From the NCBI RefSeq assembly GCF_000020965.1, contig NC_011297.1, positions 1,832,525-1,896,524 of the forward strand: DNA of 64,000 nucleotides, given 5' to 3'. This document shows positions 6,271 through 36,677 of this stretch, in pieces. The translations under genes and the position numbers were made by a program. The DNA is from Dictyoglomus thermophilum H-6-12 (GTDB lineage Bacteria > Dictyoglomota > Dictyoglomia > Dictyoglomales > Dictyoglomaceae). The notes under the pieces are model-generated. The model made no database searches. It worked only from the letters and a program-made list of their open reading frames with translations, and had not been told where the DNA came from. How positions within the stretch are numbered: position 1 is the stretch's first letter; the number at the start of each line of letters is the position of its first letter.

Positions 6271-7149
6271 TTAAGCCTCCAAGCCTCCTTCTTTCATCCT
6301 CATCCTCTGAAGTCTGGTCCTTGGATCTAAATAATTACTTACACTTACTGAAAGAAGATAGAGGGATATAAAGAGTAAAATGGCTATAAGGACAGGAGTA
6401 AATATCCACCACCATATACCCCTTAAAAGAGCCTGATACTGAAGAGCCCAATATATGGTTGTTCCTATAGTAGAAGTTTCTAAACTAGAAAGTCCATATA
6501 TGGCCAATGTAGTCTCCATTCCTATGGCCCATAGAATTGTATTTATAAAATTAGCCATGACCCATGGAATAACAAAGGGCAAATGTTCTGTAAGTACAAT
6601 CTTTAAAGTATCCATTCCAGAAAAATTAGCAGTATAGGTAAATTCCCTTTCTCTAAGACCTAACACTATAGATCTAACTTGCCTTCCTCCCCAAGGCCAA
6701 GAGAACAAAGATAAAATTATAGCTATCAAAATTATACTTATGTGTTGTTTAATAATAGAAGAAATAAGAATCAATATAGGTAAACTTGGAATCACAATAA
6801 AGCTATCATTAATAGACATCAATATCCTATCTACTCTACCCCCTAAATATCCTGCTATAAGCCCTACTATTGTCCCCACCAAAATAGAGATTATAGCTGT
6901 AAGAGATCCTAAGAAGAGAGAGTTTTTAATAGCATGAGTTAAATTCCAAAATATGTCTTGTCCCATGGAGTTTGTTCCTAATATATATTTAAAAGAAGGA
7001 GGAAGATTTTTAGGAGCTACATTCCAAAGTTTTGGATCATAAGGAGCAAAAAAAGAGAGCAAAGCTAAAAAAACTAATACTACTAAGACTGTGAAACCAA
7101 AAGCAAATTTCTTGTCGCTTTTGTAAAGATCTCTTATAACTAAAAACAT
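6271..7149 (-). CDS. Opp/Dpp-type ABC transporter permease (DppC-like)
   Basis: 292 residues. It has an N-terminal membrane helix (about 17-36), a periplasmic segment with LGTNSMGQDIFWN, then a five-helix permease core. In the usual position of the ATPase-contacting loop is REREFTYTANFSGMDTLKIVLTEHLP, a variant of the EAA motif. It pairs with the DppB-like permease encoded 14 bases upstream. The length and motifs are standard for the family. Confidence 0.92.
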   Translation of the reverse strand: MFLVIRDLYKSDKKFAFGFTVLVVLVFLALLSFFAPYDPKLWNVAPKNLPPSFKYILGTNSMGQDIFWNLTHAIKNSLFLGSLTAIISILVGTIVGLIAGYLGGRVDRILMSINDSFIVIPSLPILILISSIIKQHISIILIAIILSLFSWPWGGRQVRSIVLGLREREFTYTANFSGMDTLKIVLTEHLPFVIPWVMANFINTILWAIGMETTLAIYGLSSLETSTIGTTIYWALQYQALLRGIWWWIFTPVLIAILLFISLYLLSVSVSNYLDPRTRLQRMRMKEGGLEA

Positions 7150-7163
7150 TATCTATTACCTCC

Positions 7164-8174
7164 TCATCTATACCTAACCCGAGGATCAAATAATGGATAT
7201 AATAGATCTATTAATAAAGCTGCCGTTGCAATTCCTACAATAGAGAATACCGCAATTCCCATAATCAAGTTATAATCTCCATTATTTATTGCCATATATA
7301 ACATCTGGCCAAGACCTGGATAGGAAAAAACCGTCTCTGTTATCAAAGAACCACTAAATATACCACCGATCTGAAGGGCAAGATTCGTTATTTGAGGTAA
7401 GAGGGCATTCCTCATTACATACTGAAAAAGTATTTTTCGAGATGGAATCCCCATAACTTGTGCATATACCACATAATCTTCAGAAACAATAGTAGAAGTT
7501 AAAGACCTCATGCTTAAAAACCACCAACCTATCCCTATAAGAATGAGAGAAAGGGCAGGTAAAAAGGCATGTTTAATTACATTTAAAATAAATTCCAAAG
7601 AAAAGGAAGGAGTTAAACCTACGCTATACCCTCCAGTCATGGGAAATAAAGGAATCAGATAAGCAAAAAGGATGAGAAGGACTAAAGCCATAATATAATA
7701 AGGAATTGGATATATGGTCATAGCCAAAAGCCCCAGAATCTTTGCCCAATTTCTATCACTGTAATATCCTGCAAGCCCTCCTAGGATATTTCCTATAATC
7801 CAAGAGAGTAAAGCTACAGTAATTAAAAGGCCTGCTGTCCAAGGCAAAGAATTCATGATAATGGATATGACAGGAGTTGGAAAGATAGAAAGAGAAGGCC
7901 CAAAATCCCCTTTAAGAAGTCTACCCCAAAACTTCAAATACTGCTCTAAGATATTCCCTTTTAACCCGTAAAGCTCCATCATGGTCTCTTTAAGTTTTTC
8001 TATTGCTGAAGGATCAAGATATTGAGCCCCATAAGCAGTCATTCTATTTAATACCGTTACTACAGGATCAAGGGGCGTAAGTCTTGGAACCAAAAATACC
8101 ACTGTAATTCCAATGAAAATAACTACAAAATACTGAATCAATCTAGGTATTATATATCTTTTTAAAAAATTCAT
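7164..8174 (-). CDS. Opp/Dpp-type ABC transporter permease (DppB-like)
   Basis: 336 residues. A first helix (about 14-32) is followed by a large external loop containing LTPLDPV, then about five helices. The EAA-like loop is DYVVYAQVMGIPSRKILFQYVMRNALLP, with the characteristic terminal segment ending LYPLFDPRVRYR. It is the first membrane gene after the binding protein and is separated from it by 75 bp containing a strong hairpin, which may set its expression below that of the binding protein. Confidence 0.92.
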   Translation of the reverse strand: MNFLKRYIIPRLIQYFVVIFIGITVVFLVPRLTPLDPVVTVLNRMTAYGAQYLDPSAIEKLKETMMELYGLKGNILEQYLKFWGRLLKGDFGPSLSIFPTPVISIIMNSLPWTAGLLITVALLSWIIGNILGGLAGYYSDRNWAKILGLLAMTIYPIPYYIMALVLLILFAYLIPLFPMTGGYSVGLTPSFSLEFILNVIKHAFLPALSLILIGIGWWFLSMRSLTSTIVSEDYVVYAQVMGIPSRKILFQYVMRNALLPQITNLALQIGGIFSGSLITETVFSYPGLGQMLYMAINNGDYNLIMGIAVFSIVGIATAALLIDLLYPLFDPRVRYR

Positions 8175-27968: not shown

Positions 27969-28020
27969 TAAACTACTATCTAATAACCCCCTTTCTCCTT
28001 CTTTATAGGTAAAGATCTTT

Positions 28021-28048
28021 TACTTTAACGTTAAACTTGATTAAGTTT
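28021..28048. promoter_or_regulatory. LacI-type operator O2 plus overlapping inverted repeat
   Basis: The same AACGTT-N-AACTT half as at 27951-27968 is present at 28027-28038, with a left arm that differs at two positions. It overlaps a second inverted repeat AAACTT-GATT-AAGTTT (28033-28048). The two AACGTT centres are 70 bp apart. A TATAAA on the minus strand (28002-28007) lies between the two operators and may be the -10 box; its -35 is poor. Confidence 0.55.
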
Positions 28049-28145
28049 AAAATTAATTTAAAGAAAACTTCAATCACTTTTATAAGGATAAAAAACAAAC
28101 TTTTGCAACTTATATTATACTTTTCTCCTATTTTTAAAATTTTTC

Positions 28146-29180
28146 TCAATTTTTAGCAAAATATCTCACACTTTCTCTCTCGACAATTCTAACTGGCAAT
28201 ATCACTGTTCTTTCTTTAATAGGCTTTCCTTCAAGATAATCCACAAGCATTTTAGCAGCGATTATTCCCTTCTTCTCAACATCTTGATGGATAGTCGTAA
28301 GTCTTGGCGAAGTTATGAGACTTATGTCAAGATCATCAAATCCCACAATTGATACCTCGTCAGGAATTTTTACCCCCATCTCAATCAGTCCACTCATAAT
28401 CCCCGCAGCCATAATATCTGCAGTGACAAATATGGCAGTAAAGTCTTTTCTTTCACTCAACTTTCTTCCCAACTCTATACATTCTTCTACCCTTGTCCCA
28501 TGTTCATAAACGTTCTCTTTTTTAAAGGGAATACCAAATTCCTCTAAAGCCTTTTTATACCCCTTCAATCTTTCTTCCAAAACTCCCTTAGGCTTAATCT
28601 TAGGAGATACAAATAAAATTTCCCTGTGTCCTTTTTCTATCAAATATTTTGTAGCCAAATAACCCCCTTTAAAATCTTCAAGGCCAACTTTTAAGAACTT
28701 GTCACCATCCACATAACTATCTATAAGTACTACGGGAATTTCCGTTTTTAAAAGTGTCTCATAAAATTCATCCTCAAAAATACCTGTAACTATTACTCCA
28801 TCAAGATTCCAATTTTTCAAAAGAGCAATTAATTCCTCTTTATTGTTTACTGTACGCAACATAATAAAATATCCCCTACTACTTAATTCCTTCTCAACTC
28901 CTCCTAAGAAAACTGTATGAAATGGATCTTGTATAAAACTCCCCCTTGCAGTAGGTATTAAACAATTTATGACCCCTACTATTTTCGAATTTCTTTTAAC
29001 TAAAGATCGTGCAAGCATATTAGGCACATAACCTTTTTCTTCTATTATTTTTTCAATCTTCCTTACTGTTTCAGCAGAAACATGCTCATATTTTTTGTGT
29101 ATGACATTAGAAACTGTAGTAGGACTTACTCCAGCTTCTTTTGCAATGTCTTTTATAGTAATCAAATTCTTTTTTTTCAT
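28146..29180 (-). CDS. LacI/GalR-family transcriptional repressor
   Basis: 344 residues from the ATG at 29180; the longer GTG start lies inside the AAGGGTG ribosome site. The helix-turn-helix ITIKDIAKEAGVSPTTVSNVIHK is near residues 6-28. The ligand domain ends with VSIVGFDDLDISLITSPRLTTIHQ, typical of the family. It is transcribed towards the sugar operon, with two operator-like palindromes in the 255-bp gap between, so it is the likely local repressor. The sugar effector is unknown. Confidence 0.93.
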   Translation of the reverse strand: MKKKNLITIKDIAKEAGVSPTTVSNVIHKKYEHVSAETVRKIEKIIEEKGYVPNMLARSLVKRNSKIVGVINCLIPTARGSFIQDPFHTVFLGGVEKELSSRGYFIMLRTVNNKEELIALLKNWNLDGVIVTGIFEDEFYETLLKTEIPVVLIDSYVDGDKFLKVGLEDFKGGYLATKYLIEKGHREILFVSPKIKPKGVLEERLKGYKKALEEFGIPFKKENVYEHGTRVEECIELGRKLSERKDFTAIFVTADIMAAGIMSGLIEMGVKIPDEVSIVGFDDLDISLITSPRLTTIHQDVEKKGIIAAKMLVDYLEGKPIKERTVILPVRIVERESVRYFAKN

Positions 29181-29386
29181 ACTCTTCACCCTTTTTGCAT
29201 TTTAAAAAATATTATACAAGAAAATACAACTCGTTATCGCTCATAGAATATAAAAATACTCTTTTAGGAAAGCGGTAATAAACAGCCATCTTTCAAATTT
29301 AATTTTTCCTTTATAATATTGTGATAAAATTTCAAAAATAAGACATAAAATAAAGTTATAAAACACTTTTAAAGGGAGGAAAAAAG

Positions 29387-30727
29387 ATGATAAACAGTTT
29401 TCCAAAGACAAAAGAAGAGGTTTTAAAGTATGTTAAAGAGAATAATGTCTACTTCATAGAAATTTGGTTCACAGACATCTTAGGGTACCTAAAAAGTTTT
29501 ACTATAACTGCCCATGAGTTAGAAAAGGCCTTCGAAGAAGGATTGGGTTTTGATGGCTCTTCTGTTAGAGGATTCACAAGAATAGAAGAAAGTGATATGA
29601 TTGCTTTTCCTGAACCAGAAACCTTTACCATCCTTCCTTGGAGACCTAAAGACAAAAAAGTGGCAAGAATGTTTGCAACAATCTTAGAACCAAACGGAAA
29701 ACCCTTTGAAGGAGATCCCAGAAATGTCCTAAGAAGAATGCTTGCAAAAGCAAAAGAATTAGGCTTTACTTATTATGTAGGACCTGAATTAGAATACTTC
29801 TATCTCAAAGCTCCAAGCTCTAACCCTGAAGTTTTAGATTGGGGAGGATATTTTGACTTAATACCCAGAGATGAAGCTATTGATTTAAGACATCAAACAG
29901 TATCAATATTGGAAGAAATGGGTATTGAGGTAGAACTTACTCATCATGAAGTGGCTCCATCTCAGCATGAGATAGATTTTCGATATGCAGAAGCTTTAAC
30001 TATGGCAGATATTGTAATGACAGCAAGATTGGCTGTAAAAGAAGTAGCATATCTTAATGGAGTTTATGCCACTTTTATGCCTAAACCCCTCTTTGGCCAA
30101 AATGGATCTGGAATGCATGTTCATATGAGTTTATTCAAAAATGGCAAAAATGCCTTCTTTGATCCTAACGATAAATATCATCTTTCTGATACTGCAAAAC
30201 ACTTTATCGCAGGTCTTTTAAAACATGCAAAAGAGATAACCCTTATTACTAACCAATGGGTAAATTCTTACAAGAGATTAGTACCTGGATATGAGGCTCC
30301 TGTTTATATATCTTGGGCTATGAGAAATAGATCTGACCTTATAAGAGTTCCTATGTATAAGCCTGGAAAGGAAGAAGCAACAAGAATTGAGTACAGGGCT
30401 CCTGATCCTGCTTGTAATCCATATTTAGCTTTTGCTGTAATACTTGCTGCAGGTCTCGAAGGAATAGAAAAGAAATATCCTCTTCCTGAGCCTATAGAAG
30501 AAAATGTTTATCATATGACCGAAGAAGAAAGAAGAAAAAGAGGAATAGAAAGCCTTCCTGGAAGCTTAATTGAGGCCATAGAAATAACAGAAAAAAGTGA
30601 ATTAGTAAGAAAAGCATTAGGAGATCATGTTTTCACAAACTTTATAGAGAACAAAAAGATAGAATGGGACAATTATAGAAAACAAGTTACTACCTATGAA
30701 TTAGAAACCTATTTACCTGTACTATAA
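29387..30727 (+). CDS. glnA: Glutamine synthetase, type I (alpha subgroup-like)
   Basis: 446 residues. Ammonia assimilation: glutamate + NH3 + ATP to glutamine. Visible signatures are the beta-grasp DGSSVRGF region, the metal-binding YYVGPELEYF motif, the ATP-site segment FMPKPLFGQNGSGMHVHMSL and NRSDLIRVP near the glutamate site. The C-terminal part has ENVYHMTEEERRKRGIESLPGSL without the 25-residue insertion or adenylylation-tyrosine context of GSI-beta, so it is probably not controlled by adenylylation. GGGAGG precedes the ATG. It is monocistronic, with a terminator directly after. Confidence 0.97.
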   Translation: MINSFPKTKEEVLKYVKENNVYFIEIWFTDILGYLKSFTITAHELEKAFEEGLGFDGSSVRGFTRIEESDMIAFPEPETFTILPWRPKDKKVARMFATILEPNGKPFEGDPRNVLRRMLAKAKELGFTYYVGPELEYFYLKAPSSNPEVLDWGGYFDLIPRDEAIDLRHQTVSILEEMGIEVELTHHEVAPSQHEIDFRYAEALTMADIVMTARLAVKEVAYLNGVYATFMPKPLFGQNGSGMHVHMSLFKNGKNAFFDPNDKYHLSDTAKHFIAGLLKHAKEITLITNQWVNSYKRLVPGYEAPVYISWAMRNRSDLIRVPMYKPGKEEATRIEYRAPDPACNPYLAFAVILAAGLEGIEKKYPLPEPIEENVYHMTEEERRKRGIESLPGSLIEAIEITEKSELVRKALGDHVFTNFIENKKIEWDNYRKQVTTYELETYLPVL

Positions 30728-30759
30728 AAAAGAGGGGGACATTGCGTCTCCCTCTTTTT
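30726..30759 (+). terminator. Rho-independent terminator after glnA
   Basis: AGAGGGGGAC (30731-30740) pairs with GTCTCCCTCT (30746-30755) with one G-T wobble and a 5-nt loop, followed by TTTT. Confidence 0.88.
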
Positions 30760-30818
30760 CATTTCCAAAGAACTATAATATAATCATCCGTAGCGGTTTT
30801 TAAAAATAGGAGGTAAAT

Positions 30819-32057
30819 ATGTTTCTTTGGATTTTTTTAATATTTATAATAGGAAAAGAAATCGTTCATGCTTATCTTAGCTGGAGGAACCTAAAGTATG
30901 CCACATCTCATAAAGAAATCCCTGACATACTTAAGGATATAATAACGGAGGAAAATTTCAAAAAAGCTAAAAGCTATCTAAAGGATAATACCATATTTGG
31001 TTTTATCAGTCAGGCCTTTGATTTAGTAATTACTTTAGTCTTCTTATTTTTCCTTTATCCCTATATTGAGAATTTTGTATCTTCTATTACATCTTCTTTT
31101 GTTCTTCAAGGACTTCTATTCTTTGCAATTTCTGGACTTATAAACTTAATCTTATCCCTACCCTTTCAAATCTACGATACTTTTGTTATAGAACAGAAAT
31201 ATGGATTTAATACAATGACTGTAAAAACCTTTATCTTGGATATCATAAAGTCTATTATAATATCGGTAATCTTAGGTACCCCAATTCTCTCGCTCTTGCT
31301 TTACATAATAAAAGTAGATCCAAATTTCTGGTGGAAGTTTGCTCTTGTGGTAATTTTCTTCGAGGTTTTCATGATTTACATATATCCAGTACTCATAGCC
31401 CCTCTTTTCAATAAGTTTATTCCTTTAGAAGAGGGAGAACTGAAAAATAAAATAATGGAAATTGCAGATAAAAATGGATTTAAAATAAGTAATGTATTTA
31501 TCATGGATGCTTCTCGAAGGACAAAAAAACAAAACGCTTACCTTACTGGTCTTGGAAAAACAAGAAGAGTAGTACTATATGACACTATACTCTCCTATCC
31601 CCAAGAAGAAATACTTGCCATATTTGCCCATGAATTAGGACATCATAAGAAGGGACATATCACCAAATCATCAATTCTATCAATAGTCTTTTATGTTCTA
31701 TATATATACTTAACCTTTTTAGTATATAAAAAAGCTCCTTTTACTCAATATTTCGGAATTAAAAAAGAATTTACCATACTTCTATATTCTTTCATGTTCA
31801 TTTCTTCTCTATTCTATTTCATAACTCCATTAGTGAATGCCATATCCAGAAGATTTGAATATGAAGCAGACAAATTCTCTGCCGAAATTCTTAACACTCC
31901 TTATCCCCTAATCAACGCTCTTAAGAGATTAATAAAAGAAAATCTATCCAACATTTATCCTGATCCCTTATTCCGCACATGGTATTATTCCCATCCAGCT
32001 CCTGTAGAAAGAATATACAGTCTACTAACTTTAGATAAGGAGGCAAAAAGCAAATGA
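30819..32057 (+). CDS. M48 family (Ste24/CAAX-type) membrane metalloprotease
   Basis: 412 residues with several membrane helices. The zinc site HELGHHKKGH is near residue 270 and the third ligand Glu lies in FEYEADKFSAE near 345. The N-terminal region (ISGLINLILSLPFQIYDTFVIEQKYGFNTMT) is typical of the Ste24-like clan with an N-terminal membrane chamber. In bacteria such enzymes are thought to take part in membrane protein quality control. AGGAGG precedes the ATG. It overlaps nadE by 4 bases. Confidence 0.93.
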   Translation: MFLWIFLIFIIGKEIVHAYLSWRNLKYATSHKEIPDILKDIITEENFKKAKSYLKDNTIFGFISQAFDLVITLVFLFFLYPYIENFVSSITSSFVLQGLLFFAISGLINLILSLPFQIYDTFVIEQKYGFNTMTVKTFILDIIKSIIISVILGTPILSLLLYIIKVDPNFWWKFALVVIFFEVFMIYIYPVLIAPLFNKFIPLEEGELKNKIMEIADKNGFKISNVFIMDASRRTKKQNAYLTGLGKTRRVVLYDTILSYPQEEILAIFAHELGHHKKGHITKSSILSIVFYVLYIYLTFLVYKKAPFTQYFGIKKEFTILLYSFMFISSLFYFITPLVNAISRRFEYEADKFSAEILNTPYPLINALKRLIKENLSNIYPDPLFRTWYYSHPAPVERIYSLLTLDKEAKSK

Positions 32058-33637
32058 AAATCACTTTAGCTCAAATAAATCCCACTATTGGAGATATAGA
32101 AGGAAATTTAATAAAGATAAAAAATGCCATATTAAAAGCTATTTCCGATAAAAGTGACGTGATTATCTTTCCAGAGCTTTCCTTGTTGGGATATCCCCCT
32201 TTTGATCTCTTAAAGAATAGAATTATTAGAGATAAATTAGAAAGAGCACTTCAAAAAATCTTAGAAGAAAAATTCTCCATAAATATTCTTTTAGGAGCTC
32301 CCTATTTTGAAAATAATAAAACCTATGACAGTGTATATTGGATAAAGGAAAATAAAGTAATAAAAAGAATTGATAAATTCTATTTCTCAAATGATCCGTT
32401 AGGTCAGAATGATTATTTCTCCAAGGATGCAAAGCCGGAATATATAGAAATAAATGATAAAAAGATCGCAATATTAATAAGTGATGATACTCTCTTTTCC
32501 TATGATTTCTCAGGGTTTAATGATTACCTTAAAAACTCTAATTTAATTCTTATAGTATCCTCCTCTTTTTACTACTTTGGAAAAAGGAAAGAAAAAATTG
32601 AAAAAATATCTAATTTTGCAAAGAACTTAGGTAAAAAAGTTATTTATATTAACCAGGTAGGAGGAAATGGAGAGTTAGTTTTTGAAGGAGGAAGTCTTGT
32701 GATTTCTGAAGAAGGAACTGTAATTTTTGAAGGAGAAATCTTCAACGAAGACATTAAAACAATAGACCTTGAAAGTCTTTTCCCAATACTCCACAAAAAT
32801 GAAGACCTTTCCTTTCTATATAACAGCCTTGTCATGGGGTTAAGAGATTTTATAAAAAAATCTGGCTTTAGAAAAGCTGTAATAGGGCTTTCTGGGGGCA
32901 TAGATTCTGCTCTTGTAGCTTGTATAGCCACAGAAGCCTTAGGAAAAGACAATGTTCTTGGTGTAAGTCTTCCCTCTATTTACACCTCTAAAGAAAGCAT
33001 AGAGGATGCCAAAATACTCTCTCAAAACTTAGGTATCGAATTTAGAATAATTCCTATAAGTGAGATTTTTTACTCCTATCTAAAAGAATTAAATCCGTCA
33101 GAAAAACCTGTAATGGATGTTGCCGAAGAAAATCTACAATCAAGAATAAGAGGTAATGTTTTAATGTTTATATCTAACAGGGAAGGATACCTCCTCCTTG
33201 CTACAGGAAATAGATCGGAAGCGCTCACAGGCTATTGTACTTTATATGGAGATACTGCAGGAGCCATAGAAGTTATTGGAGATATATATAAAACCACTGT
33301 GTATGAACTTGCAAATTATATAAACAAAGAAAAAGAAATTATACCTCAAAACATAATTACCAAGGCTCCTTCTGCAGAATTAAGACCAGGACAAAAAGAT
33401 GAAGATTCTCTTCCCCCTTATTCTGTTCTTGATCCTATACTAAAGGCTTACGTAGATGAAAACAAACCTATGGAAGAAATTCTCCAAATGGGATATAAAG
33501 AAGAGCTTGTGAAAACTGTAATTGAAAAAGTAGAAAAGAGCGAATATAAAAGGAAACAAATCCCTCCTGTTTTAAGAGTAAGGTCTAAAAATCCACTTAG
33601 AGAAAGATTTTTCCCATTAGTTTATAAAATCATATGA
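32054..33637 (+). CDS. nadE: NAD synthetase with degenerate glutaminase domain
   Basis: 527 residues: an N-terminal nitrilase-like domain (1 to about 245) and a C-terminal synthetase domain (about 260-527) with the PP-loop GLSGGIDSAL and TGNRSEALTGYCTLYGD. It converts deamido-NAD to NAD. In the glutaminase half, Glu41 (FPELS) and Lys108 are kept, but the expected nucleophile Cys of the ICED motif is Ser143 (LISDD, codon AGT at 32480-32482). Ammonia release from glutamine is therefore probably lost and the enzyme likely uses free ammonia. Its start overlaps the protease stop (ATGA). Confidence 0.93.
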   Translation: MKITLAQINPTIGDIEGNLIKIKNAILKAISDKSDVIIFPELSLLGYPPFDLLKNRIIRDKLERALQKILEEKFSINILLGAPYFENNKTYDSVYWIKENKVIKRIDKFYFSNDPLGQNDYFSKDAKPEYIEINDKKIAILISDDTLFSYDFSGFNDYLKNSNLILIVSSSFYYFGKRKEKIEKISNFAKNLGKKVIYINQVGGNGELVFEGGSLVISEEGTVIFEGEIFNEDIKTIDLESLFPILHKNEDLSFLYNSLVMGLRDFIKKSGFRKAVIGLSGGIDSALVACIATEALGKDNVLGVSLPSIYTSKESIEDAKILSQNLGIEFRIIPISEIFYSYLKELNPSEKPVMDVAEENLQSRIRGNVLMFISNREGYLLLATGNRSEALTGYCTLYGDTAGAIEVIGDIYKTTVYELANYINKEKEIIPQNIITKAPSAELRPGQKDEDSLPPYSVLDPILKAYVDENKPMEEILQMGYKEELVKTVIEKVEKSEYKRKQIPPVLRVRSKNPLRERFFPLVYKII

Positions 33638-33680
33638 TATAATTCTTTAGATAAGTTTCAATAATAGGAGGTGTAACTTA

Positions 33681-35603
33681 ATGAGAAGAAATCGTTTTAC
33701 AGCCGAACAAGTAGATGAAAAGGATATAGAATACCTAAAAGCTCTTGCTCACAAATGCAGAGGCGATATTCTAAAGATGACAACTCTTGCTGGTTCAGGA
33801 CATCCTGGTGGCTCCATGTCATCCATAGAAATGTACTTAACCCTGTACTATTTTGCCAATGTTGACCCCAAAGATCCTAAAAATCCTGATAGGGATAGAA
33901 TCATTATCAGTCATGGACATACCTCTCCAGGCGTATATTCTGCCTTAGGAAATTTAGGATTTTTTAATATCGACGAAGCTATAGCCTACTTCAGACTCGC
34001 AGGAAGTATATTTGAAGGACACGTAGAAAGATACGTTCCTGGAGTTGAATGGAGTACTGGAAATTTAGGCCAAGGACTTTCTGCAGGATGTGGAATGGCT
34101 ATTTCTGCAAAACTTCTTAAAAAAGATTTCCACGTCTTTGTAGTTATGGGAGATGGAGAACAGCAAAAAGGCCAAATCTCCGAAGCCCGAAGATTTGCTA
34201 AAAAATATAACCTATCTAATTTGACTGTACTCATAGACTATAACAAATTACAACTCTCAGGGCCTCTTTCTGAAATAATGCCTCAGAATATTAAAGAAAA
34301 TTATCTTGCCGATGGATGGGAAGTAATAGAAGTAGATGGACACGATTTCAAAGCTCTTTACAAAGCCATAAGAGAAGCAATCTATGATAACAAGCCTACA
34401 GCTATTCTTGCCCACACCATTATGGGTAAGGGCGTATCATTTATGGAAAACAAATTCGAGTTTCATGGAAGAGCATTAAAGCCTGACGAATACAAAAAAG
34501 CCTTAGAAGAATTAGGGATTGAAGATGATCTTGAAAAATACAAAAAAATGAGAGAGGAATTTAAACCTTCTGGAAAACATATAATAGAGCCTTATACCAT
34601 AAACATAAATATAGGTACTCCCTTTACTTATGAAAAAGACGCAAAGATAGATAATAGAGGTGCTTTTGGGAAAGCCCTTGCAGATCTTGGAAAACTAAAT
34701 GTAGGAAAGGAAGGAACAACACCTATAGCAGTGGTAGATTGCGATCTAATGGAATCAGTAAGAACTCATGAGTTTGGTAAAATAGCTCCTGAGAATTTCT
34801 TTGAGGTAGGTATACAGGAACATAATGCAGCAACTCTTGCAGGAGCATTATCCTCTCAAGGAGTAATTACATTTTTCGCAGATTTTGGCGTTTTTGGCGT
34901 TGATGAAACCTACAATCAGCATAGACTAAACGATATTAACTTTACAAATTTAAAAGTTATTGTCACTCACTGCGGACTTGATGTAGGTGAAGATGGAAAA
35001 ACTCATCAATGTATTGACTACATCGGAGCTTTTAGAAATCTCTTTGGTTTTAAGATTATTGTACCTGCAGATGGAAACCAAACTGATAGAGTAATAAGAT
35101 ATGTAGCAAAAGAATTTGGAAACTTCTTAGTCGCAATGGGAAGGTCTGTAACCCCAATTATTACCGATGAAAATGGCAATCCACTTTTTGGTGGTAATTA
35201 TGAGTTTATATATGGAAAGATGGACAAAGTAAGGGACGGAGATAAAGCTGCAATTATAGCTTGTGGTCCCATGGTAGCAAAGGCAGTACAAGTTTGGGAA
35301 AAATTAAAAGAAAAGGGTATAAAAATTAAAGTTTTTAACTTTACATCTCCTAAAGAAATTGACTGGAACGCTTTATCTGAGGCTGCTAAAACAGGTTTTG
35401 TATTAACATACGAAGATCATAATGTATATACAGGAATAGGCAGTATAATAGCAGAAGCCCTTCTTGAAGGAGGATATAAAGTTAAGTTTAAGAAATTAGG
35501 AGTAAAAGAATACGGACTTTCTGGAAAACCTGATGCTCTTTACAAATTCCAGGGCTTAGATGTAGATTCAGTGGTAGATTTAATAATCAAAGAACTTGAG
35601 TAG
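33681..35603 (+). CDS. tkt: Transketolase
   Basis: 640 residues, single-chain form. The thiamine-diphosphate motif is VVMGDGEQQKGQISEARRFAKKYNLSN (a GDG...N variant near residue 155). The pyrimidine domain has EVGIQEHNAATLAGALSSQG and HCGLDVGEDGKTHQ. It is a pentose phosphate enzyme moving two-carbon units and fits downstream of the Gnd encoded at 51.3 kb. A TATAAT at 33638-33643 directly after nadE suggests its own promoter, and AGGAGG precedes the ATG. Confidence 0.96.
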   Translation: MRRNRFTAEQVDEKDIEYLKALAHKCRGDILKMTTLAGSGHPGGSMSSIEMYLTLYYFANVDPKDPKNPDRDRIIISHGHTSPGVYSALGNLGFFNIDEAIAYFRLAGSIFEGHVERYVPGVEWSTGNLGQGLSAGCGMAISAKLLKKDFHVFVVMGDGEQQKGQISEARRFAKKYNLSNLTVLIDYNKLQLSGPLSEIMPQNIKENYLADGWEVIEVDGHDFKALYKAIREAIYDNKPTAILAHTIMGKGVSFMENKFEFHGRALKPDEYKKALEELGIEDDLEKYKKMREEFKPSGKHIIEPYTININIGTPFTYEKDAKIDNRGAFGKALADLGKLNVGKEGTTPIAVVDCDLMESVRTHEFGKIAPENFFEVGIQEHNAATLAGALSSQGVITFFADFGVFGVDETYNQHRLNDINFTNLKVIVTHCGLDVGEDGKTHQCIDYIGAFRNLFGFKIIVPADGNQTDRVIRYVAKEFGNFLVAMGRSVTPIITDENGNPLFGGNYEFIYGKMDKVRDGDKAAIIACGPMVAKAVQVWEKLKEKGIKIKVFNFTSPKEIDWNALSEAAKTGFVLTYEDHNVYTGIGSIIAEALLEGGYKVKFKKLGVKEYGLSGKPDALYKFQGLDVDSVVDLIIKELE

Positions 35604-35619
35604 TAATAAATTAAAAATT

Positions 35620-35647
35620 AAAGGGGAGGAAATTTATCCTCCCCTTT
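35620..35647. terminator. Bidirectional terminator between tkt and the CE15-like gene
   Basis: AAAGGGGAGGA (35620-35630) pairs with TCCTCCCCTTT (35637-35647). T-rich sequence follows on the plus strand. The minus-strand stop codon (35634) lies in the loop, so one hairpin serves both convergent genes. Confidence 0.85.
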
Positions 35648-36677
35648 TTGTCTTATTAAAAATGAACTCACAAAAATCTATTAAATTATCAATATCTTCA
35701 CGACAAATAGTATGTCCTCCTTCTCTATAGGCAAATCTAATCCTTTCAGCATACCCCCAAAATTCATAAACTTTTTTAGCTTCTAAGAAAGCACGCCAGG
35801 TTCCCTCGGGATCTGTCCATAGATCAGCATACCCTCCAGTGATAATTAAACCTCTCGGAGCACAGAGAGCTAATAATAGATGTTGATCAAAAGGTAATCT
35901 GTTCACATCATCAAACTCCCTAAAAATATCATTAAACCAATGAGCCTCTGAAGGACTCTGTAAGTTTGAAAATGGTTCAGAAGAAGGAGAAGCATATCTA
36001 AAAAGCGCAGTACCTCCTGCCCCTGAAGCATGAGGATTCACAATAAGAAACCTCTCGTCAAAAGCACCTGCTAAAATAGCAGCTTTACCAAAACGAGAAA
36101 AACCCGTAATAACTGACTTATAAGGATCTATTTTAGAAAAAGCCCCTTTACAGATTATATCCATAACCTTAGAAGCACCCCAACCCCATGCCATAAGTAC
36201 TCCAGCACTCTTTCTTACATCCTTTGAGTAAGGATAGATCTCATAAAAAGCTCCTTGATGGGTAAAGTCATCCTTTGCTACTTGATAAGGATCAAAAATT
36301 ACTACAGAATAACCCTTAGATGTAATATAAGGAATATGTTCTCCAATAAAACCAATAACTACAATAACAGGATATGGAGGATTAAAATTTTTCTCTTCAG
36401 GAAGGCTAAATCTTGCATTAAAAGTTGTTTCTCTATTTCCCTTTCTTATCCTAATACTTACTGTGTTTTCGTTAACTTTATAATCTACTTCTTCCTCAGA
36501 AGTATCAGGATAATAACCATACATATAAAATTGGTAGAGTTCTTTGATTTCTTGTCTTCTTCTATCCCAATCCTCCAAGTTCTCCCCTCTACTGCCATCA
36601 AAAAAAGTAAAGGGGTCAGGAAGATCATATAATAAGGGTAAATCCTTAGGTTTAGGGTATCTCTCAGATCTTTGCAT
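35634..36677 (-). CDS. CE15-like esterase (glucuronoyl esterase family alpha/beta hydrolase)
   Basis: 347 residues from the ATG at 36677. The nucleophile motif is VITGFSRFGKAA, matching the GxSRxGK of CE15 glucuronoyl esterases, and the catalytic His is in REGGHTIC near the C-terminus. CE15 enzymes split the ester between lignin alcohols and glucuronic acid of xylan. No signal peptide is seen, unlike the secreted members, so this one would act on small imported esters. Acetyl-xylan-esterase-like activity is an alternative. It lies 15-16 bp after an unknown gene on the same strand. Confidence 0.75.
   Translation of the reverse strand: MQRSERYPKPKDLPLLYDLPDPFTFFDGSRGENLEDWDRRRQEIKELYQFYMYGYYPDTSEEEVDYKVNENTVSIRIRKGNRETTFNARFSLPEEKNFNPPYPVIVVIGFIGEHIPYITSKGYSVVIFDPYQVAKDDFTHQGAFYEIYPYSKDVRKSAGVLMAWGWGASKVMDIICKGAFSKIDPYKSVITGFSRFGKAAILAGAFDERFLIVNPHASGAGGTALFRYASPSSEPFSNLQSPSEAHWFNDIFREFDDVNRLPFDQHLLLALCAPRGLIITGGYADLWTDPEGTWRAFLEAKKVYEFWGYAERIRFAYREGGHTICREDIDNLIDFCEFIFNKTKRGG

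Follow-up and report, generated by a model that had tools for sequence, protein, structure and literature searches.

Dictyoglomus thermophilum carries a fused NAD synthetase (NadE) in which the glutaminase half has lost its catalytic cysteine. Judged from sequence comparison, and with a probability that we put at about 0.8, this protein is an ammonia-using NAD synthetase with a retained pseudo-glutaminase domain, duplicated from a glutamine-dependent fused NadE within the Dictyoglomus family. The gene lies in a 64,000-nucleotide stretch of the genome, referred to here as the window, and its features are collected in Table 1. Because fused NadEs have been described as accepting free ammonia as well (PMC6946656; PMC3376133), just one activity would have to be lost along this path.

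Table 1. Features in and around the Cys-less nadE gene, in window coordinates.
Feature	Position	Strand	Basis or remark
Cys-less nadE paralogue, fused nitrilase-type glutaminase and NAD synthetase, 527 aa	32054..33637	+	PF00795, PF02540, NF010588
Putative pseudo-glutaminase (nitrilase) domain, about residues 1-241	32054..32776	+	PF00795; conserved positions; dN/dS
NAD synthetase (PP-loop) domain, residues 256-502, intact	32819..33559	+	PF02540; 46/51 conserved positions
SGGIDS motif of the PP-loop	32891-32908	+	intact in Cys-less NadE
Glu41 codon (triad acid/base Glu), kept	32174..32176	+	sequence and alignment
Lys108 codon (triad Lys), kept	32375..32377	+	sequence and alignment
Eroded LPNYxVFDE/YRE loop, residues 111-120, reads FSN-DPLGQN	32384..32413	+	alignment; PMC6946656
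Ser143 codon AGT, position of catalytic Cys	32480..32482	+	sequence and alignment
Leu147 codon CTC, position of the glutamine-tunnel gate Trp	32492..32494	+	alignment
Arg387 codon AGA in TGNRSE, synthetase domain	33212..33214	+	alignment
M48-type peptidase gene, stop overlaps nadE start	30819..32057	+	name M48 read from sequence
Glutamine synthetase gene	29387..30727	+	98.4% protein identity to the copy beside canonical nadE

Profile searches place PF00795 on residues 2-238 (54 bits) and PF02540 on residues 256-502 (266 bits), while the full-length model NF010588 is matched at 551 bits with a cut-off of 479. The enzyme has the type F architecture of an N-terminal nitrilase domain followed by an NAD synthase domain, unlike type N, from which the nitrilase domain is absent, and it retains the conserved SGGxDS site and synthetase positions. 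For the interdomain elements of type F enzymes, the alpha18 helix and the extended C-terminal loop (PMC3376133), the alignment reaches almost to the end of the fused profile (positions 5-540 of 546), and residues 496-527 are modelled too poorly to be read. That model, built from a two-row alignment, is poor overall (mean pLDDT 64, pTM 0.46); the folds it resembles most are those of fused NadEs, but overall TM-scores of about 0.4 make it uninformative for the active site. An Rfam search of window positions 28000-36000 returned no match and thus no upstream RNA element, and promoter and terminator scans found sites no more numerous than in shuffles.

The glutaminase site was compared with that of 141 fused NadEs from outside the family, drawn from the matches listed after the weakest had been left out. 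Glutamine-dependent NadE is recognized by a Cys-Glu-Lys triad, of which the window copy keeps Glu41 and Lys108 and replaces the Cys with Ser143 (...AILISDDTLF...); this is what the original prediction had read from the letters, and both the open reading frame and the alignment confirm it. In the outside enzymes the corresponding columns hold Cys in 131 of 138 readable proteins, Glu in 135 of 135 and Lys in 137 of 137. The triad is not the only part affected. In fused NadEs, a YRE loop with a second Glu, together with a Trp after the CED motif, is reported to steady the catalytic Lys and the loop, and the same elements form a constriction of the ammonia tunnel and gate the glutamine tunnel (PMC6946656). 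In the window copy, Pro113, Val117, Phe118 and the second Glu (Glu120, canonical numbering) have all been replaced or deleted, and at the second Glu and the gate aromatic residue (Trp149 in the canonical copy, Trp179 in human NadE) stand Gln and Leu. The second Glu is present in 130 of 130, and the gate Trp in 131 of 131, readable Cys-bearing enzymes.

The domain had further been predicted to be otherwise full length, which holds for its length and does not hold for its integrity. If a conserved position is taken as one kept in at least 95% of the 131 Cys-bearing fused NadEs, the window copy keeps 18 of 34 comparable positions of this kind in the nitrilase domain, whereas its synthetase domain retains 46 of 51. 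The three Cys-less copies of the genus agree closely (18, 20 and 18 nitrilase positions, and 46/51 synthetase positions in each), and canonical copies of the family keep 34-35 of 35 and 51 of 51, respectively. The Cys-less nadE frames are open in D. thermophilum, G001 and G002, and dN/dS is well below 1 in both domains. Since dN/dS of the nitrilase domain stays at a canonical-like level (0.10-0.17 for Cys-less and 0.12-0.18 for canonical pairs, rough values, since in most pairs dS approaches or exceeds saturation), the apparently dead domain is being retained for some purpose; the pair of D. thermophilum and G001 gives a similarly rough value of about 0.13 for the pseudo-glutaminase domain. 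A non-catalytic reason for retention, as originally suggested, is in keeping with open frames and purifying selection in three species. Such selection is evidence of use, not of which use. The nitrilase domain also lags behind the synthetase domain in identity by 14.9, 21.6 and 24.6 points among the Cys-less pairs, compared with at most 9.8 points in 18 Cys-bearing pairs of 75-92% synthetase identity, although lags of up to 23 points are also seen in more distant Cys-bearing pairs.

A second full-length NadE is encoded elsewhere in the D. thermophilum genome (C1:188942-190564, on the single contig of 1,959,987 bases). It is 50% identical to the Cys-less copy, has the ICEDIW and LPNYDVFDE motifs intact, and lies in a compact nitrogen cluster whose genes, named from their open reading frames, are a split glutamate synthase, nadE, glnA, PII and amtB (L072:3795-13910, equal to genome positions C1:183794-193909). 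Because this canonical paralogue is present, the cell should still manage glutamine-fed NAD synthesis, and in D. thermophilum the Cys-less copy could be dispensable, or even inactive as a synthetase. The prediction that glutamine cannot be used and that free ammonia is required is thus likely to hold for this copy, from which the glutamine-site residues have gone, and does not extend to the cell as a whole. Its suggestion of an adaptation to a hot, ammonia-containing habitat finds no support, as the canonical NadEs of the sister genus (G004-G006) and the genome's own paralogue keep the Cys.

In a tree of the synthetase domain, the Cys-less enzymes of the genus form a clade (100/100) with a long stem; it falls inside the family's canonical enzymes, a placement that depends on weak nodes. 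In two sister-genus genomes (G005 and G006) the peptidase gene found before the Cys-less copy lies directly upstream of canonical nadE, which makes it probable that the Cys-less copy occupies the ancestral position. D. thermophilum has two glutamine synthetase genes, one near each nadE paralogue (the second at L072:10647-11987), and the other six family genomes have one each. An Amt transporter is matched in just two of the seven family genomes. A plasmid search gave no match at 60% identity or above.

Both kinds of NadE coexist in D. thermophilum, G002 and G003, while the sister-genus genomes have one fused NadE each, with Cys. Orthologues of the Cys-less enzyme carry Gly at the Ser143 site in G001 (GGT) and G002 (GGA), and the orthologue in G003 is cut off before the site. 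The serine is thus not fixed among related NadEs, two congeners having Gly instead. A sequencing error, to be suspected if all relatives had Cys, is rejected on the same codons: among the relatives it is the paralogues, and not the orthologues, that have Cys. The canonical NadE of G003 (L075, contig C104) groups with the sister genus (97/93) and not with its own, which may reflect either transfer or a contaminant in a fragmented assembly. G003, G005 and G006 also encode a NadE-like protein of about 300 aa that has a single domain and an internal insert (loci L077 and L078 around 6771-7577; G005 C46:8585-9397), and in G004 it is apparently split into two short frames; no match to it was found in D. 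thermophilum, G001 or G002.

The most informative relative is G001, the complete genome of a congener (contig of 1,855,560 bases) which we take to be D. turgidum. Here tblastn finds canonical nadE only as broken pieces between a lacI-type gene and glnA, matching canonical residues 1-15, 26-47, 158-215, 302-379 and 393-410 and interrupted by many stops. The PII gene has decayed too, and the remnants of both genes lie directly upstream of glnA, at L071:7440-8218 (C1:171439-172217). A PF02540 search of this genome returned the Gly-bearing NadE and, beyond it, weak matches that look like PP-loop proteins of other kinds. All seven family genomes contain NadA, and in G001 nadB lies beside nadA; entry into NAD synthesis through NAPRT or NAMPT was rejected, as no member of these families is matched in any of the seven. 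D. turgidum has been described as appearing to derive NAD from aspartate (PMC5167688). A search of G001 for the nitrilase family yielded the remnant fragment, the Gly-bearing NadE and one other gene read as Lnt, and hence no substitute nitrilase-type glutaminase, an unrelated glutaminase partner lying outside the scope of such a search. It is likely from these gene contents that the pseudo-glutaminase NadE carries all NAD synthesis in G001. Because the canonical copy is a remnant there, dependence on ammonia may extend to the whole cell, and since no Amt transporter is matched in this genome, nothing else in it points to a need for external ammonium.

Cysteine loss is not peculiar to this genus, and its recurrence is of greater interest than the change at Ser143 by itself. 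Among the matches listed, 7 of the 138 readable enzymes outside the family are Cys-less (Gly in five, Ser in two); one further Gly enzyme, L237, comes from the order of G040, and L238, a congener of the Ser pair, has Cys. The Pro of the YRE loop is absent from all 11 Cys-less enzymes, with a gap in the three window-genus rows, and present in all 136 readable Cys-bearing ones. The gate Trp is found in none of the 11 (one cell being a gap) and in 137/137 with Cys. In a set of ten Cys-less rows, the positions lost in every row are Pro113, Val117, Cys145 and Trp149 (canonical numbering). When Pro and Trp were tested against Cys loss in independent pairs, all four agreed (p 0.125), a number of pairs that cannot reach 0.05. 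Parsimony requires six changes on one tree and five on a tree with two more rows, at least four losses fall on well-supported branches, and an AU test rejects a single Cys-less clade (p 0.001). As reconstructed from these sequences, Cys loss in fused NadE is a matter of four to six independent events. In six of the seven other Cys-less genomes, NAD_synthase is matched (E<=1e-8) by the Cys-less enzyme alone; in G258 this enzyme is accompanied by a canonical partner.

Several other readings of the window enzyme were weighed. That Ser143 serves as an alternative nucleophile, leaving the domain a (slow) glutaminase, is chemically possible with Glu41 and Lys108 retained; however, its orthologues have Gly, which is incapable of a nucleophilic role, and the second Glu, gate Trp and YRE-loop Pro have gone as well. 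We consider this reading extremely unlikely, and reject Ser143 as nucleophile on the Gly of the orthologues. Scarcely credible is a pseudogene or relaxed duplicate heading for loss: the nitrilase domain does change faster, following a long stem branch, yet open frames and dN/dS well below 1 among the orthologues, on which this candidate was rejected, are joined by the 46 synthetase positions retained and by the fact that in G001 decay struck the canonical copy instead. A change of synthetase substrate, and not of nitrogen source alone, has a slim chance. The NMN synthetase of Francisella is an example of an enzyme that uses NaMN instead of NaAD, and five conserved synthetase positions are altered in each of the three Cys-less copies of the window genus. 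One of these is the Lys of TGNKSE, kept in 136 of 137 Cys-bearing enzymes and replaced by Arg in 7 of 11 Cys-less ones, including some of other lineages; the replacement tracks Cys loss in just one or two of four independent pairs. Most conserved synthetase positions remain, however, and in G001 no further NAD synthetase was found that could finish the pathway.

Somewhat better placed, though still unlikely, is a regulatory or structural role beside the canonical enzyme, either in mixed oligomers or with ammonia received across subunits from its glutaminase. Three genomes of the genus hold both kinds of NadE, and inter-subunit ammonia tunnels are known from M. tuberculosis NadE (PMC6946656). 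Against it, the canonical copy is merely a remnant in G001, and with no second NAD_synthase found in six of the seven other Cys-less genomes the form can stand alone there. A further idea goes beyond the loss of glutaminase activity. Several bacterial lineages might convergently have remodelled the NadE glutaminase half as an ammonium port, in which loss of Cys, Pro and Trp opens the glutamine tunnel, the Glu-Lys pair binds ammonium and takes a proton, and NH3 passes down the channel. It fits the data and is weakly supported by them, and we regard it as doubtful, if worth keeping in mind. Glu41 and Lys109 (canonical numbering) both belong to the 11 positions, out of 35, that all ten Cys-less enzymes retain, and since simple arithmetic gives a chance of about 9% that both would be among those kept, their retention is a weak sign of a possible new role.

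We therefore return to the ammonia-using enzyme with a pseudo-glutaminase as the preferred reading. A glutamine-dependent fused NadE would have been duplicated within the Dictyoglomus family; one copy has lost its nucleophilic Cys, its gate Trp and most of its YRE loop, and would have lost glutamine hydrolysis as well. This copy is predicted to amidate nicotinate adenine dinucleotide with free ammonia, which would enter from solution, perhaps via the old glutamine tunnel. The nitrilase domain may be kept to help the synthetase fold or oligomerize, for allosteric control, or as a seal on the ammonia channel. In D. thermophilum, labour could be divided between the paralogues according to ammonia-rich and ammonia-poor conditions, and in G001 the Cys-less enzyme is apparently the sole NAD synthetase.

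Annotation and published NadE typing read glutamine use from the presence of a fused nitrilase domain, which should be false for the Cys-less set, several members of which are apparently the only NAD synthetases of their genomes. Titles and abstract openings in the open-access literature, as distinct from subscription papers, report no naturally Cys-less fused NadEs, and no paper on NAD synthetase in Dictyoglomus was found there; the main text of a survey of about 940 genomes (PMC3376133) does not contain 'cysteine', 'inactive' or 'Dictyoglom'. The joint loss of Cys, Pro113, Val117 and Trp149 provides a signature by which such enzymes can be found in any genome, and close Cys-bearing and Cys-less pairs are available within one genus and within single genomes. 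They amount to natural experiments on why a glutaminase domain outlives its chemistry, something that mutation can hardly address, and they also bear on whether ammonia can travel the same channel.

Among known systems, the window enzyme shares its two-domain layout with type F NadE (NF010588/PRK13981; M. tuberculosis, A. baumannii), with identities of about 50% to the family's canonical copies and of 36-42% to most full-length enzymes from outside it, and has a largely intact synthetase site. It differs in having neither the catalytic Cys nor the second Glu, gate Trp and YRE-loop Pro; according to the survey, every type F enzyme that has been characterized uses glutamine, and the interdomain elements are taken there as the mark of that use (PMC3376133). 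Type N NadE (E. coli, H. pylori, archaea) resembles it in synthetase fold and in predicted nitrogen donor, whereas the window enzyme retains an entire nitrilase domain under selection and descends from fused NadEs, the tree grouping it with those of its own family. The closest working analogue, by comparison of the two systems, is carbamoyl-phosphate synthetase I (CPS I) of animals, which is described as having Ser for the catalytic Cys, using ammonia and retaining a glutaminase-like domain (PMC4655335), while a fish CPS III is reported to have converged on ammonia use through changed glutamine-binding residues (PMC7657897). The likeness lies in the retained domain, the Ser for Cys and the further changes at the glutamine site (PMC4655335, PMC7657897), and ammonia, the sole nitrogen donor of CPS I, is the predicted donor here. 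The glutaminase folds are unrelated (Cys-His-Glu as against the nitrilase Cys-Glu-Lys), the synthetases are different, and in NadE the Cys was lost several times independently in bacteria. If the ammonium port were real, bacteria would have taken, by convergence, a step comparable to that from a glutamine- to an ammonia-type carbamoyl-phosphate synthetase.
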